From Oscillospiraceae bacterium (lineage in GTDB: Bacteria; Bacillota; Clostridia; Oscillospirales; Oscillospiraceae), in the NCBI GenBank assembly GCA_031281195.1, contig JAITFS010000097.1, positions 1 through 50,435 of the forward strand: a stretch of DNA of 50,435 nt, written 5' to 3'. The translations under genes and the position numbers were made by a program. Positions 6,004 to 40,452 of this stretch are shown here, piece by piece. The first letter of the stretch is position 1, and every line of letters starts with the position of its first letter. The notes beneath the pieces were generated by a model that had not been told where the DNA came from, searched no databases, and was given only the letters and a program-made list of their open reading frames with translations.

Positions 6004-6108
6004 AATATTCTTATATGGTCTCGGAAAGCGTAGCCAAGGACGGCGGAGCGCCGAAACTCTGAGCACGGAAGCTCAGCGTTTCGGAAAAGAGACTATCATA
6101 AGAATATT
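6004..6108 (+). ncRNA. Double-hairpin ANGGA-loop structured element, copy A (TwoAYGGAY-like RNA candidate)
   Basis: 105 bp; outer stem AATATTCTTAT+ATGGTCTC / GAGACTAT+C+ATAAGAATATT; inner hairpins with loops AAGGAC and ACGGAA; second copy at 40348-40452. Confidence 0.6.
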
Positions 6109-6137
6109 ATTATATACTACTTTTACAAGTGTAAGCC

Positions 6138-6437
6138 TTAAATAAAATCCAGAATTTTTGAAAAACCGGTTACATCAAAGATTTCCATGACAAATGATGT
6201 AACACCTGTTATTGACAGTTTTCCATTTTTTGCTTTGGCTAATTTTTGCCCTGTTAGAAGAACACGCATTCCCGCAGATGAAATATAAGCAACCTCTGCA
6301 AAATCTAAGATAATATTCTTAGAATTATCAAACATTGGAGTTAACTCCGCTTCAAATTGCGGGGCAGCTTGCGAATCAATGCTTCCGATTATTTTTAGAG
6401 TTAAGTTATCATCACCGGGTACTTTTATTATTTCCAT
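6138..6437 (-). CDS. STAS-domain anti-sigma factor antagonist
   Basis: 99 aa; NIILDFAEVAYISSAGMRVLL STAS motif. Confidence 0.9.
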   Translation of the reverse strand: MEIIKVPGDDNLTLKIIGSIDSQAAPQFEAELTPMFDNSKNIILDFAEVAYISSAGMRVLLTGQKLAKAKNGKLSITGVTSFVMEIFDVTGFSKILDFI

Positions 6438-6458
6438 TTTAACGCTCCATTTCTACTA

Positions 6459-7679
6459 TTACAGACTTATCCACATTGCAGGACGAAAACCACCTACAAA
6501 GAAATAATCACGATTCACAAAATCACCACTAACTGCAATTCTGCCTTCAACAGTTACACAAGATGCAAAATTTGGGTTATTACCCGGAGTTCGCAGCCAC
6601 CAGGAGGAGGGGAGATTATCATCACTTACAGCTTTTCGAATACCATTATAACTATCATTTATAAAGAATTTTGAATCAGGATTTCTGTTATTTAGTTGTC
6701 CGCTATTTCCGAGGTATGTTACTACTTCATGAATACTAAGAATAAAAATCTTGTCCTCTGTATCTCTGCCACCGTTTGTTCCAAACCACGGATTGTTCAT
6801 GTTGAGAAGCTTTGTTTCTAATATTCTTGATTTATCCGCGTCGCTAAAGGTGTTGTAAAACTCATTGTTCATATAATGACGCAAGGAACAATCCGCCCAG
6901 GTTACAGCTTCATACTTGTCGTGATAACAATGCTTTTCAAGCACATGGTCGCATAATAATAACGCTTTACCATCCTGCACATTTAATACCCACCACCTAT
7001 TATTACCAAATTGCATTACCTTTCCTGTATCGTACTCATCCTCAAGAGTATAAGCGACCGGAGTTTCACCCGGTGTTTGAGGATTTCGCCACATTGGAAA
7101 AGCCTGCACTCCACGAGGTAAGCGGATTGGATCGCCTACGGGTTGGAAGCCTGCACGCTCATAAGCTCCACGAGCAGATTGACGTGTTGTAGCTTCTAGA
7201 TATGCCGGCATACCTATTTTATCAAGCTCATTAAGACGGTGGCTTATAAGCTTACCACCTGCACCACGTCCTTGAGCTTTTGGGTGAACACAAATAAGAG
7301 CAAGATGTTCATACATTGCAGGAGGATAGTGCTCCTCCAGAGTATCTCCAAGCATTTGAAAACGCGGAGCATGACTTCCGGCAAACCTCATGATTTCATC
7401 GTTTTCTTCTTCACCCATTGAACCCTTTGGATACCAGATAGCTGCTCCAAGTACGCCTAAATCTTCACAGTCAGCTACGTTGAGTGTACCTTTATTAAGT
7501 CCAACGCGTATTAACAGCCTGAAATAATCTTTTAATACTTTAATGCGTTCATCGACATTTTCGGCAAGCCATGCCGTAAACTCCGCATCCATAAAGTTAA
7601 TTGCCATGATTTCTACAATTTCTTCTGTTTCATCTTTGTTAGCCAGACGAATGGTTAAATCTTTGATTGTTTGTGACAT
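6459..7679 (-). CDS. GNAT-family N-acetyltransferase fused to a C-terminal DUF6273-like domain
   Basis: ORF trimmed to ATG at 7679, preceded by AAGGAGTTCAAT. N-term LICVHPKAQGRGAGGKLI (GNAT acetyl-CoA loop); C-term SSWWLRTPG...GGFRPAMWISL typical of DUF6273. Confidence 0.8.
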   Translation of the reverse strand: MSQTIKDLTIRLANKDETEEIVEIMAINFMDAEFTAWLAENVDERIKVLKDYFRLLIRVGLNKGTLNVADCEDLGVLGAAIWYPKGSMGEEENDEIMRFAGSHAPRFQMLGDTLEEHYPPAMYEHLALICVHPKAQGRGAGGKLISHRLNELDKIGMPAYLEATTRQSARGAYERAGFQPVGDPIRLPRGVQAFPMWRNPQTPGETPVAYTLEDEYDTGKVMQFGNNRWWVLNVQDGKALLLCDHVLEKHCYHDKYEAVTWADCSLRHYMNNEFYNTFSDADKSRILETKLLNMNNPWFGTNGGRDTEDKIFILSIHEVVTYLGNSGQLNNRNPDSKFFINDSYNGIRKAVSDDNLPSSWWLRTPGNNPNFASCVTVEGRIAVSGDFVNRDYFFVGGFRPAMWISL

Positions 7680-7873
7680 ATTGAACTCCTTGAATGTATT
7701 TGAATCTTTGTTTTTAAGGTTCTTGTAAGTATAACATAGAAATTTTCGCAAACAAAGTTCCATTCTCATAGTAGAATGACAGAACAGCAGAAATATGTGT
7801 CGTGAGTGTGTCGAGGTGACGGGGATTTGACACATCTGGAGTCTGCTTGCCAACACGGGCAAGAGTGTTGTTA

Positions 7874-8713
7874 TCACGTTCCTGCTTCTGATACAGTGAA
7901 GGGAACACTTATAATATGTGTTTCGTCCGTATAGACAAAATCCATACTATATAGACGGATTTCGTAGTTGCCAACTGTTGTGGGTGCGTAAAACTCAAGA
8001 GTTGATGTACCTTCGATTGGATATCTGTATTGCTGATAAAAATCATGCGGTGCTCCTAAGTCATAAATGGCTGCGAATGATCCTGCCGAAATCATCTCCT
8101 CTGTTACTCCCGTCACAGTTACAATAATTATCTCACCCGGGAAATAATCTGTGCAATCAAGGAAAAGGTCTATCGAGTTATCATCACCTTGCGAATCATC
8201 ATCACCTTGTGAGTTGTCATCAATAAATGGACTACCATCTATCAATAACGTGGCAAGGTCAGCATCGCTTATGGTAATCCTCTCCACATCCGGAAGGGTT
8301 TCGCTTTGGAATAAAGCAAACCCACCCATTTGGAAAAATGCAATTGCAGCACCAATAAACAGAGCAACAATCGGCAAAACGATAGGTAATGCATACGATT
8401 TTTTTGTTACAGGCTTTACAATATTTGGTGTAGAATCTGTCGGGTGGAAATTATGTGTAAATTCACCACTATCGGGATAAAACCATGTAATCCACTGTCC
8501 GTTTTCACCGGTTTGCAAGTTGCTCCCCATTGCAGTCATGTAGTAAAGTCCGTTGCTTGGGTCGAGTGTGAAACATTCAGGAGCTGCGTACAACGCTTGT
8601 GATTGCTCCGGAATTTGTTCTGATGCAGCATTATAAACACTTTGTTTTTCACCACAGATATTGCAAAACAACACACCGTTTAGCAGTTGGGTACTGCACT
8701 TTTTACAAATCAT
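7874..8713 (-). CDS. Zinc-ribbon domain membrane protein, function unknown
   Basis: 279 aa; MICKKCSTQLLNGVLFCNICGEKQ zinc ribbon, one TM segment, Asp/Ser/Gly-rich linker, extracytoplasmic beta-rich tail. Confidence 0.7.
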   Translation of the reverse strand: MICKKCSTQLLNGVLFCNICGEKQSVYNAASEQIPEQSQALYAAPECFTLDPSNGLYYMTAMGSNLQTGENGQWITWFYPDSGEFTHNFHPTDSTPNIVKPVTKKSYALPIVLPIVALFIGAAIAFFQMGGFALFQSETLPDVERITISDADLATLLIDGSPFIDDNSQGDDDSQGDDNSIDLFLDCTDYFPGEIIIVTVTGVTEEMISAGSFAAIYDLGAPHDFYQQYRYPIEGTSTLEFYAPTTVGNYEIRLYSMDFVYTDETHIISVPFTVSEAGT

Positions 8714-8725
8714 GATTTTTTCCTC

Positions 8726-11014
8726 TTATCTCTCTCTTACATATTCGGTATTGTTAAGCCATATACTGTTACCTTCATGACGGAATCTGAACTCTACTGT
8801 CCCTCCGCGTGGTTGATTTGCTCCCCAAGTATTTTGAATAATGATTTTATCTCCAGTGATCTCAAAAGGTCCTTGTACGTTAAATGCTGTTCCGGTCAGG
8901 CTTAGTGTAAAAAGATTCGCGTCGAAGTCGAGTGAGACATAACTACTGCTCAAGATAGCACCGTAGTAGAATCCACCAAGGCTGGTGTCGGGCGGTGGTT
9001 TGGACAATGGTATATCCATGTTGGGTGGTAGTTCTCCACCGCAGGTTAAGAAAATAAAATCAACATCATACTCAATATATGTACCTGATGGGTCTCTAAA
9101 CTGCATAGACCAGGAGTTGTCAGGATTAATTGCTCCGGTAATGGAGAGAACATTACCTACTTCATCGTCGACCAATGTGACTTTATCACCTACAATCTCC
9201 CATGTGCCATCAACACCCCAGCCATCGTTAAAAAGTCTCACTACTCTTTCTTGCAGTTGTTGCTTTATATTATCGGGTGTTGCAGGGTCATGTGGATTTG
9301 GACTTCCAAAGGAACTGTATATATAAGTACCGTTTGGTAAAAACCAATAAAACCATATAGTAGCTCCGTCTCTACCGGCTGGTGGCCATGTATAATAAAT
9401 ATCACCTGTTGGACAACCACTGCTTTGTGGCGGAGGCGGTGGTGGCGGAGGAGGCGGAGGAGGTGGTGGTGGCGGTGGTGGAGAAGGCGGAGGAGGTGGT
9501 GGTGGAGACGGAGGAGAAGGTGGAGGAGGTTGTGGTAGTACACGTTGACCATCCGACGGACAAATCACAGAGAGTTCTTCAAATATCTCCGGCAACTTGT
9601 TAGGTGGATGCCAGCGAGTTTGAATTAAATGTTCACTCTCATAAGGAATATTCCAATTATCCATAGGAGTTGTTCTTTTGGGTATGAAAGCCGGACTTAA
9701 CGGACCATTATCCCGTCGCTCCCATTGTTTATCATTACGATTCCAGGCATAAGAGTTACCACCCATTATCCCACGCGCACGAATACCATATTCACCTGCT
9801 CTAAACCAGGCACGTGCGTCACCCGAGCGACCGTCGCTATTTCTCCAGATGTGAGCAAGTCGATCTGAATTTATATCTCTTACGGAATATACAATATCAC
9901 CATTAGGATGTACTTCATAGAGAGTAGTATCTACTTTTGTATCTATTGCATGTCTTATTTGTCCGGTGGAGCTGTCTCTCTTAAAAATCGTCTTCTGACC
10001 GTTGTCTAAATTACCAATCCAGTAAATATCCTTCCCATCACTTTGCAGGGAATGTCCATTAATATATCCGGTAATTTCTCCGGTTCTCAAGTCCATAGCT
10101 ACTATCTTGTTGGCAGCATTATCGGATTCATGACGGTATCTGTTTGTTTCAATGTAAATATAATCCCCAATTATCTGAGCTTTTACGATGGTTTCGTCAG
10201 AATTTTGAGCAACTCTGATAGTCTGTGGTTCACCACAGGGACCCATAACAACCATGGTGGGTTTTTCGACATAATTTAGAAATAAGATACCGTCTGGTGG
10301 AAAATCATCAGCAGGAAATAATAAAAACTTCAGTCCACTAAAGTCAGCATCAATGCTCTGCGGATTTGCAGATAAAGTGTGATCCTGCGAGTCATCAAAA
10401 TTGATAAACATAACAGAGCCGTCAGCATACATTACAGGAGACTGGTATTGACCCTGCACTCCTACAATACTCACTTCACTCAATGGGATATTTCCGTCTA
10501 AATATTGCTGTATACCAAACATATAAAACATATTACCACCGTAGGTGATATGGTTTTCGTCGTTGACAGCATCCCATAACGCGTCATGGGAGACAGCGGA
10601 GACAGCACGTAAGGTTCCGTTTTCGTCACGGAAGGTGCAATATGCAAGGTCGGTGAATACCATCTGATCACCAACAATGTTAAGATTTGCAACAGGGAAA
10701 TCGGTGAGTTTTGTTGTATTGCCATTTCTATCTATAACATAGAGAGTACCACCGTCAGCGAAGTTAATAAAGAAAAAATCGTCACCTTGCATTGTCATAA
10801 AACCACCGTTGTGCAGGTTGTAAGCATTGTTACCCGCAAGATTTCTACCATCTTGGTCGGTGGGAATATCGCTTACCGGGTGGCTGTTACCATTTATAGC
10901 GTAGCTAACGCCAATGTACCCAATGATAAGCATTACTATTGTTAGAATCAATGTTAATACGATGATTCCGGTCTTACGTTTTGCTTTAGGGACTTGTTGT
11001 ACCTGTGTATACAT
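8726..11014 (-). CDS. DUF5050-like / beta-propeller extracytoplasmic protein with a long Ser/Pro-rich linker
   Basis: ORF trimmed to ATG at 11014 (MYTQVQQVPKAKRK..., preceded by AGGAGA). N-term TM segment; repeated short beta motifs; linker PPPPSPPSPPPPPPPSPPPPPP... Confidence 0.65.
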   Translation of the reverse strand: MYTQVQQVPKAKRKTGIIVLTLILTIVMLIIGYIGVSYAINGNSHPVSDIPTDQDGRNLAGNNAYNLHNGGFMTMQGDDFFFINFADGGTLYVIDRNGNTTKLTDFPVANLNIVGDQMVFTDLAYCTFRDENGTLRAVSAVSHDALWDAVNDENHITYGGNMFYMFGIQQYLDGNIPLSEVSIVGVQGQYQSPVMYADGSVMFINFDDSQDHTLSANPQSIDADFSGLKFLLFPADDFPPDGILFLNYVEKPTMVVMGPCGEPQTIRVAQNSDETIVKAQIIGDYIYIETNRYRHESDNAANKIVAMDLRTGEITGYINGHSLQSDGKDIYWIGNLDNGQKTIFKRDSSTGQIRHAIDTKVDTTLYEVHPNGDIVYSVRDINSDRLAHIWRNSDGRSGDARAWFRAGEYGIRARGIMGGNSYAWNRNDKQWERRDNGPLSPAFIPKRTTPMDNWNIPYESEHLIQTRWHPPNKLPEIFEELSVICPSDGQRVLPQPPPPSPPSPPPPPPPSPPPPPPPPPPPPPPPPPPQSSGCPTGDIYYTWPPAGRDGATIWFYWFLPNGTYIYSSFGSPNPHDPATPDNIKQQLQERVVRLFNDGWGVDGTWEIVGDKVTLVDDEVGNVLSITGAINPDNSWSMQFRDPSGTYIEYDVDFIFLTCGGELPPNMDIPLSKPPPDTSLGGFYYGAILSSSYVSLDFDANLFTLSLTGTAFNVQGPFEITGDKIIIQNTWGANQPRGGTVEFRFRHEGNSIWLNNTEYVRER
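9424..9537 (-). repeat. CCN trinucleotide (poly-proline) low-complexity tract
   Basis: Plus strand is almost pure GGN/GGA/GGT triplets; encodes (P)nS repeats in the 8726-11014 CDS. Confidence 0.9.
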
Positions 11015-11107
11015 GATGTTCTCTCCTGATTTGATGTTATCAATATAACACAAAATCACTGTTGAAACAACATTCTATCCCCACAACAAAGTCCCCTCGA
11101 CACATCT

Positions 11108-12094
11108 TCACTCTAATATAAATATAGCTGTGCTACCGCTTACTGCTGAAAACCTGTATGCACCATTATTTTGTATGACAGCCGGAACCTCACTCGAAAA
11201 ACCACCTGAAACTGCGGAGTGAGTCACAGTTATCTCTCCTTCGTTTGGAATGTACAATGCTATACCTCCTGAAACAGTGCTGACTTTTACTCTATCAGGA
11301 ACAATTGCACTCTTGATAGTAATACTACCGGATACCATGCTGGCATCTACATCATCAAACTCACCGGACAAAGAAACCTGCGCTGATACACCGCTTGTGC
11401 TTATCTTGTCTGCTATGAGTGACTGAGTGTGTATCGCACCTGCTACAGTGACTAGTGTCGCAGATCGAACCGTTGCATCTGATATATTTGTTGTCCCTGA
11501 CACATTGTTAAATGATAATGTTTGAGCGTTAATACCTGTTGCATTTATTGACCCTGAGACAGAGTTTACTTTAAGGTTATTTGCACTAGTGTCTGTCACT
11601 GTGGTTTTACTTGAAGACGCAGAAATGACAAGCTCTTGAAAATTATTAATTAAACTGTGTGGAACTTGTACTTCAAGTCTCTTTGGTGGAGCACGACGAA
11701 CTCTTCTTTGCGAATTAAACTTTATAGTAATTATGCCGTTGTTTGTACTAATGCTCATAAGCTCGTTTTCATTTAGTTCACGTTGTGCATACTCTGTGAT
11801 TTTTATACTATCACCATCATAAGGCTCAATAGTTATATCACCTGCAATCCAATCAACTTTTAACGAATGAATACCATCAATTGATTTATTAAAAGAACCA
11901 CGTTCATAAAAATCACCGGATAGATTTTCGATGTTCCCGATGTTAAATCCCCAAAAAATACTCGAACCATCACTATCCCGACCACTCATAAAAGACCTAA
12001 ATGCAGAACCTGTCAAAAACCATATTGTCAGACTGATTAACACTGTGGCTGTTACTATCCAACAAACAATTGTTAAAACCTTTGTAGTGTTCAT
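11108..12094 (-). CDS. DUF4097 family beta-strand repeat protein, membrane anchored
   Basis: 328 aa; N-term TM then SGDITIEPYDGD, VSGSINATGINAQTLSFNNVSGTTNISDATV repeats ending in AVSGSTAIFILE. Confidence 0.85.
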   Translation of the reverse strand: MNTTKVLTIVCWIVTATVLISLTIWFLTGSAFRSFMSGRDSDGSSIFWGFNIGNIENLSGDFYERGSFNKSIDGIHSLKVDWIAGDITIEPYDGDSIKITEYAQRELNENELMSISTNNGIITIKFNSQRRVRRAPPKRLEVQVPHSLINNFQELVISASSSKTTVTDTSANNLKVNSVSGSINATGINAQTLSFNNVSGTTNISDATVRSATLVTVAGAIHTQSLIADKISTSGVSAQVSLSGEFDDVDASMVSGSITIKSAIVPDRVKVSTVSGGIALYIPNEGEITVTHSAVSGGFSSEVPAVIQNNGAYRFSAVSGSTAIFILE

Positions 12095-12771
12095 TTTCCG
12101 CCTCCTCTAGCCAGAGTAAAAACGACGTTTATTAGAGCTTCTATCATAAAACCAATAACAAATATTATCCAGGTCATATACCACGCAAATGTCATAAAGC
12201 TGATGATAAAGTACAAAGCGAGAATAATCGCCCAAAGTGCTGATGATAAAGCCCTGCGTAATGCTTTTCGATCTTTTTCGTCTGTTTGCCATTTGCGAAA
12301 ATCTTCAACCATTGAGTTAGAAGACTTATAAAACTTTGGTTTTGTCATGCTGTTGTAAATAAGCAATCCTGTTGCTCCTGCAATCATTAAAAACATAACA
12401 GGAACGCCAACAATATCTGCTCTATAAATGTCGAGTAAAGACAGAATTATAATAGGTAATATACTAAGAATGTACATCATTACTGCGATTGATGTAAATA
12501 GTGCTGACCTTTGGCGTGCTTTTTCGTATTCTTGTATGTCCGGAACATACGGTTCGGTGTCTTTTTCAAGTTCTGCAAGTAATGATGAAATATCACCAAC
12601 ACCTGCAATTGCTATATTGTATGCAGCTTCCTCGGTTTTTCCGTCTGAAATAAGGTCATTGTATTTGTCGTGAAGGTTTTGTATCATTTCTTCCTTTAGT
12701 TCGACGGATTTTTTAGTAGGGGTTGTCTCAGCGAAAAGACCATCTATATATCTTCTGAAATTGTCTTGCAT
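12091..12771 (-). CDS. HAAS/DUF1700-type permease-prefix domain membrane protein
   Basis: 226 aa; NFRRYIDGLFAETTPTKKSVELKEEMIQNLHDKYNDLISDGKTEEAAYNIAIAGVGDISSLL plus 4 TM helices. Confidence 0.8.
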   Translation of the reverse strand: MQDNFRRYIDGLFAETTPTKKSVELKEEMIQNLHDKYNDLISDGKTEEAAYNIAIAGVGDISSLLAELEKDTEPYVPDIQEYEKARQRSALFTSIAVMMYILSILPIIILSLLDIYRADIVGVPVMFLMIAGATGLLIYNSMTKPKFYKSSNSMVEDFRKWQTDEKDRKALRRALSSALWAIILALYFIISFMTFAWYMTWIIFVIGFMIEALINVVFTLARGGGK

Positions 12772-13314: not shown

Positions 13315-13336
13315 ATAATATTCTTATATGGTTTTC
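13315..13336 (+). repeat. Truncated copy of the left end of the double-hairpin element
   Basis: AATATTCTTATATGGT matches the left end of copy A (6004 onward), then diverges directly into the GTAGGGG repeat. Confidence 0.6.
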
Positions 13337-13406
13337 GTAGGGGCGGATGGCAATCCGCCCGTTATGTTTGCATAAAAACTGCGGGACGATTTCCATCGTC
13401 CCCTAC
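13337..13406 (+). repeat. 70-bp composite hairpin element (GTAGGGG ... CCCCTAC), contains 28-nt repeat copy 2
   Basis: 7-bp terminal inverted repeats; internal stems GGGCGGAT/ATCCGCCC and GGGACGAT/ATCGTCCC. Confidence 0.8.
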
Positions 13407-13485
13407 AAAGAAACTCCTTGCCCACTTTAGTAAAGAGGTGTGCCCAATCCGTGCGACGGGGAATCCGCAGACTGCGAGTGATTTG

Positions 13486-13842
13486 TTAACCCATCTTCTG
13501 CTCTAACACCTCAATTATAACCTTCACATGTGTGTGGTCTGTGTCTTTTCCGGCAAAAAGTAATGTTACGGTTGGTTTATCTTTGATTAAATCTACAAAA
13601 GAATCAAGAACAGGATTATTTGTAAGCTCAGTTTTGTATAATGCCGAAAACTCCTGCCAGGACAAAACACCACTATGAAAATCTTGTCGTAATTTAGTGG
13701 TAGGTGTTATATCCTTGTCCCATAAATCAATATTAGCGGTCTCTTTCTTCACACCACGAGGCCATAAACGGTCTACCAACACTCGAAAACCATCTGTTGG
13801 TGCTGCTTTTTCATAAATCCGCTTCATTTTAATTGTAACCAT
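13486..13842 (-). CDS. DUF488 family protein
   Basis: ATG at 13842 preceded by GGAG; KRIYEKAAPTDGFRVLVDRLWPRGVKKE...LWDKDITPTTKLRQDF. Confidence 0.9.
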   Translation of the reverse strand: MVTIKMKRIYEKAAPTDGFRVLVDRLWPRGVKKETANIDLWDKDITPTTKLRQDFHSGVLSWQEFSALYKTELTNNPVLDSFVDLIKDKPTVTLLFAGKDTDHTHVKVIIEVLEQKMG

Positions 13843-40347: not shown

Positions 40348-40452
40348 AATATTCTTATGATAGTCTCTTTTCCGAACGCCTGCACATCCATGTGCAGAGG
40401 TTCGGCGCTACACCATCCATGGTTCCGCTTTCCGAGACCATATAAGAATATT
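40348..40452 (-). ncRNA. Double-hairpin ANGGA-loop structured element, copy B (TwoAYGGAY-like RNA candidate)
   Basis: 105 bp, same length as copy A (6004-6108) in inverted orientation; minus-strand loops are both ATGGAT; compensatory changes in both hairpins. Confidence 0.65.

Follow-up and report, generated by a model that had tools for sequence, protein, structure and literature searches.

A dispersed two-hairpin repeat of an Oscillospiraceae genus, under structural selection on one strand, with a possible relation to TwoAYGGAY RNA and CsrA

The TwoAYGGAY RNA (RF01731) was reported in 2010 (Weinberg 2010, PMC2864571). CsrA binding was predicted for it in the RMfam paper (PMC4333381), and the Rfam clan CL00106 holds both RF01731 and CsrB; the idea that CsrA acts on such elements is therefore not new. 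For RsmE, contacts to the A and the GGA of an ANGGAN hexaloop have been described, and CsrA dimers bridge sites that are 10-63 nt apart, best above 18 nt (PMC7652899). In the flaA mRNA of Campylobacter jejuni, a bacterium with the FliW-CsrA system, two adjacent ANGGA hexaloops titrate CsrA (PMC4894983).

The window, i.e. the whole stretch of 50,435 nucleotides that was analyzed, originates from the metagenome-assembled genome (MAG) of an Oscillospiraceae bacterium. A sequence-only reading had pointed out two elements of equal length (105 bp), copies A and B, with common outer arms, compensated differences within the inner stems and ANGGA in all loops. Re-reading the sequences at both coordinates bore this out on every point, including the four ANGGA hexaloops (Table 1). 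When folded on the strand that carries the GGAs, copies A and B form an outer stem around two hairpins (-47.4 and -45.7 kcal/mol, respectively), with z-scores of -7.7 and -8.0 and none of 200 shuffles equally stable. Copy A is flanked by a gene for a STAS-domain protein and moaA, copy B by recJ and a divergent DUF975-like gene. Copy A was described as antisense to both of its neighbours, and this holds within the window; it is not a fixed feature of the site, as the core found there in the sister genome (G018) is sense. At the same site G018 differs by a deletion or rearrangement of several kb, one end of which lies around 45 bp from the element: comparison of contig L096 with window positions 6108-12100 shows that the homologue of 11091-12123 directly adjoins the copy A site. 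Beside the arm remnant of a third copy, at a site occupied by an element in G018, window positions 13330-13490 contain other repeat units, GGGGACGATGG...CGTCCC and GGGCGGATTGCCATCCGCCC.

Table 1. Positions of the type-1 elements and their parts within the window
Feature	Position	Strand	Evidence
Copy A, type-1 element (whole)	6004..6108	+	R2 match, 82.6 bits
Copy A, outer stem, 5' arm; partner 6089-6108	6004..6022	+	fold
Copy A, hairpin 1, GC-GUA-GCC-[AAGGAC]-GGC-GGA-GC with GNA/GNA internal loop; loop 6036-6041	6028..6049	+	
Copy A, hairpin 2; loop ACGGAA at 6065-6070	6051..6084	+	
Copy A, outer stem, 3' arm	6089..6108	+	
Copy B, type-1 element (whole)	40348..40452	-	R2 match, 84.4 bits
Copy B, hairpin 1; loop ATGGAT	40407..40428	-	
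Copy B, hairpin 2; loop ATGGAT	40372..40405	-	
Remnant outer arm of a third copy	13317..13332	+	complete element at this site in sister genome G018 (L088)

A BLAST search with copy A returned 13 full-length copies and more partial ones within the same MAG. To describe the family, two covariance models were used: R1, which covers the core and was built from 18 copies, and the broader R2, which includes the closing stem and was built from 26 diverse copies. With these models at least 43 copies were identified in the host MAG, ruling out an element of two copies; they fall into several outer-stem families. Within the genus, around 310 copies together were recovered from 10 of the 19 genomes, the other nine having none, and in a family-wide survey (301 genomes, 106 genera) the element was limited to this genus except for one weak match. 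The element-bearing genomes include the Oscillospiraceae MAGs Pal332_bin15, Lab288P3bin200 and Th196P3bin147, the sample codes of the latter two referring to the guts of higher termites (PMC7024585). One genome (G004, L123:2018-2226) carries a tandem pair of identical elements, 127 bp apart and with the same outer-stem sequence. A strong copy (71 bits) was also encountered near the end of a viral contig in IMG/VR (L429), reflecting either carriage by a phage or host contamination.

The constant core of the family comprises the junction, hairpin 1 (GC, the GNA/GNA internal loop, 2-4 bp and ANGGAN) and then hairpin 2, which has a long variable stem and an ANGGAN or AGGA loop. The outer stems are genome-specific in sequence and conserved in pairing, with a mean length of 22 bp and a maximum of 45. 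Loop 1 reads ANGGA in each of 178 copies, with T (129), C (25) or A (24) and never G at the second position; loop 2 reads ANGGA in 135 and retains GGA in 163 of the 178, the exceptions being ACGA-type loops that belong to a few subfamilies. The two GGAs are separated by 26-30 nt, and both this spacing and the loops fit the bridging range of CsrA dimers and the RsmE-type ANGGAN hexaloop. The GNA/GNA internal loop and the sequence of the helix that surrounds loop 1 show stronger conservation than CsrA alone would call for. The internal loop was found in almost all rows of the alignment and would, judged by its sequence, contain tandem G-A pairs. In three G018 copies (L223, L224 and L214) hairpin 2 contains, or has given way to, a different palindromic repeat (CATTCCGCACTTGATGCGGAAT...GCGGGTCAAGCCCGCAATGACG), which occurs in several places. 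Covariation supports the fold. In a MAFFT alignment of 26 diverse copies, which was not fitted to the structure, both sides had changed at 17 of 24 pairs, amounting to 121 cells with both-side changes versus 45.6 after shuffling and 15-38 with the partners slid. Among 18 copies of the host genome, both-side changes were present at 6 of 18 pairs, and 98.8% of the positions paired versus 24-38% with the partners slid, well outside what chance would give.

As DNA processes can maintain the pairing of a palindrome and do not distinguish its strands, the outer stems were anchored by Watson-Crick pairs only and the remaining mismatches were counted on the GGA strand. In the outer stems outside the region of the model, G·U outnumbered A·C by 83 to 11 unique contexts (p=8e-15), and the ratio was 31:1 for the gammaproteobacterial copies described below; 23 other hairpins from the same loci, taken as control, gave 10:10. 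On the GGA strand G·U is thus tolerated and A·C is not, and therefore selection acts on the single-stranded fold of one particular strand. The family is under structural selection on one defined strand. The natural reading is that the selected fold is RNA, although a strand-specific fold of single-stranded DNA also fits the G·U bias, and we consider a function at the RNA level highly probable. The sequence-only reading had opposed RNA selection to a mobile element; the selection on strand-specific fold and loops stands, the opposition does not, since the family is at the same time a dispersed repeat of many copies. More generally, the comparison of G·U with A·C provides a tool to separate one-strand structural selection from palindrome mechanics.

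Relatives outside the genus were sought by a pattern search with hairpin 1 in named genomes, followed by scoring with R2. Two-hairpin homologues were recovered from Gammaproteobacteria (Pseudomonadales) at 36-65 bits, and these copies gave no RF01731 match in Rfam at E<=0.01. In Denitrificimonas caeni DSM 24390, five elements, with both orientations represented, are crowded into 0.9 kb of intergenic non-coding DNA (L378:670-1524); its elements have additional conserved flanks beyond the outer stem. Repeats of Planctomycetota and Desulfobacterota have hairpin 1 in common with the element and some have a second GGA hairpin, at weak scores. As the planctomycete matches reach only ~20-37 bits with R2, they were rejected as full homologues and the claim is limited to hairpin-1-like similarity. 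In very abundant repeats of Planctomycetota (L313-L428), the hairpin AGCGNAGCCATGGATGGCGNAGCG precedes a second GGA hairpin and CGAACGTCCGGCGA; these repeats may represent one more member of this RNA class.

Most copies are located in short gaps between genes. Based on gene calls by a simple longest-ORF rule, which may be wrong in single cases, 67 copies between codirectional neighbours have the GGA strand in sense and 34 in antisense orientation (p=0.0013), a preference most pronounced in G009 and G003. Sense copies have their model start at a median of 41 nt past the upstream stop codon; the antisense copies, around a third of the codirectional sites, retain the G·U bias. An intrinsic terminator was rejected, as the sequences that were read have no U-run after the stem. 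Control of a regulon of related genes was likewise discarded, as 60 downstream proteins had no function in common and represented unrelated housekeeping genes.

That a role for CsrA is plausible, as was proposed earlier, is supported by the host genome, which encodes the protein (83.9 bits). At its C-terminus this CsrA has the conserved VxVFREE region, Arg at position 44 included. Within the genus, csrA was found in 13 and fliW in 11 of the 19 genomes. The presence of csrA (8 of 10 element-bearing versus 5 of 9 element-free genomes) does not separate the two groups and is weak as a strict test. No csrA was found in G002 (36 copies, 86% complete) and G005 (18 copies, 64% complete), in which the sampled loops are intact; incompleteness of these genomes may explain its absence. 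An apparent loss of FliW in the host (G000) and in G018 is uninformative, csrA being situated at a contig end in both. The distribution of csrA is compatible with a CsrA role, yet it is no evidence for one. CsrA is the predicted partner of the element, a prediction that we favour by a small measure.

Overall, the best explanation appears to be a structured RNA of the TwoAYGGAY / CsrA-binding kind that is carried by a dispersed repeat, and a slight preference is all that we attach to it. Each copy folds on one defined strand such that the long outer stem presents two hairpins with C-ANGGAN-G hexaloops. Judged by position and sense bias, the copies would be read as parts of host transcripts, and each transcribed copy would most likely bind one CsrA dimer across both loops. 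Tens of copies together could then act as a distributed, mRNA-embedded CsrA sink, while individual copies may also have local effects on the mRNA that carries them. The most far-reaching version, a mobile or amplifiable repeat that seeds ready-made docking sites for CsrA dimers into dozens of operons and so constitutes a genome-distributed, invertible CsrA sponge in distant phyla, is put forward tentatively and is on the whole doubtful.

The behaviour of the repeat is relevant to the foremost alternative, a selfish hairpin repeat of which one strand would be recognized as single-stranded DNA (or RNA) by a mobilizing enzyme, the loops and the GNA/GNA helix serving as recognition marks and CsrA being uninvolved. 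At 23 sites compared between the host and G018, the element was present in both at 13 and missing from G018 at 10, differences that together with the tens of copies per genome are in line with such a repeat, as are the near-identical type-3 copies, which indicate recent spread. The recurrence across phyla of the whole hairpin-1 helix, beyond ANGGA, also agrees with it, and so does the G·U bias, as folded single-stranded DNA likewise tolerates G-T better than the other mismatch. Against it, the 10 sites without element in G018 showed no clean empty site and no target-site duplication; a classical MITE with such duplications was rejected on the same grounds. Mobilization of the REP/RAYT type by a Y1 transposase is unsupported: Y1_Tnp does not track the element, and the IS200/IS605-type enzyme is missing from 6 of the 10 element-bearing genomes, including ones that are 98% and 92% complete. 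No transposase family stands out among the 60 downstream genes, and the sense bias relative to genes also counts against a selfish repeat. We consider this alternative unlikely.

A less probable alternative still is a cis-acting element for mRNA processing or stability in operon gaps, in which the long stem would be a barrier to RNase III or an exonuclease and another protein would bind the loops. The position just past stop codons in codirectional gaps, the sense bias and the length of the stems agree with this, but the invariant ANGGA of loop 1 and the GGA in most loops 2 are not explained by it, and the downstream genes have no common function. Arm-to-arm exchange does occur: of 8 scorable type-1 sites, one of them a remnant in the host at window 13317-13332, 6 have the core inverted between the host and G018, those of copies A and B among the six, with breakpoints within the AATATTCTTAT arms, and L214 of G018 is a type-1/type-2 recombinant. 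Inversions across such short imperfect arms are no obvious product of misassembly, though the genomes are MAGs. The core of copy B is identical in both genomes within flanks of ~77% identity; at copy A the core is much less similar than the flanks are, suggesting that copies exchange sequence. Pure palindrome mechanics, with template switching between arms restoring the pairing and the compensatory changes reflecting mutation and not function, is nevertheless most improbable and ruled out as sole cause, as it is strand-symmetric, predicts equal G·U and A·C (83:11 found, 10:10 in control hairpins) and leaves the conservation of loop 1 in 178 of 178 copies unexplained.

For TwoAYGGAY, an orphan RNA since 2010, a defined strand, a sharp core (the GNA/GNA hairpin and ANGGA loops with fixed spacing) and hundreds of natural variants are now available. 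With D. caeni DSM 24390 a named isolate is at hand as host, making the published CsrA prediction directly testable. If true, scattered operons can come under a global regulator by way of repeats, and bacteria with FliW-controlled CsrA may also titrate CsrA through repeat-borne sites.

Compared with known systems, the element resembles REP/BIME and MITE-type repeats in being intergenic, palindromic and present in many copies and both orientations; it differs by having no link to a Y1 transposase and no target-site duplication seen, and by its strong strand-specific covariation and conserved loops. With the flaA leader of C. jejuni (PMC4894983) it has two adjacent ANGGA hexaloops in common, spaced by 21 nt in flaA versus 26-30 nt; flaA is a single-gene leader, whereas the element is a repeat with a long closing stem. 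CsrB-type sRNAs, members of the same clan as RF01731, also present GGA in hairpin loops, but from one or a few dedicated genes with many GGA sites instead of tens of dispersed two-site units. RF01731 itself was the best matching Rfam family, so that the likeness to TwoAYGGAY noted earlier holds; membership is not supported, as all scores are 31-39 bits (31.4 for copy A, 37.3 for the best copy of its own genome and 38.8 for the best tested in the genus) versus a gathering threshold of 43 bits. Both have a long, poorly conserved outer stem around two hairpins with AYGGAY-type loops, the tandem G-A feature reported for a TwoAYGGAY stem (PMC4333381) probably recurs in hairpin 1, and the taxa reported for TwoAYGGAY (human gut, Clostridiales and gammaproteobacteria among them) are similar. 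Where TwoAYGGAY has a 10-bp stem, the element has a short hairpin 1 interrupted by the GNA/GNA internal loop, and the element is a high-copy dispersed repeat. Despite the sub-threshold scores, architecture and clan fit a divergent and far more widespread form of TwoAYGGAY.
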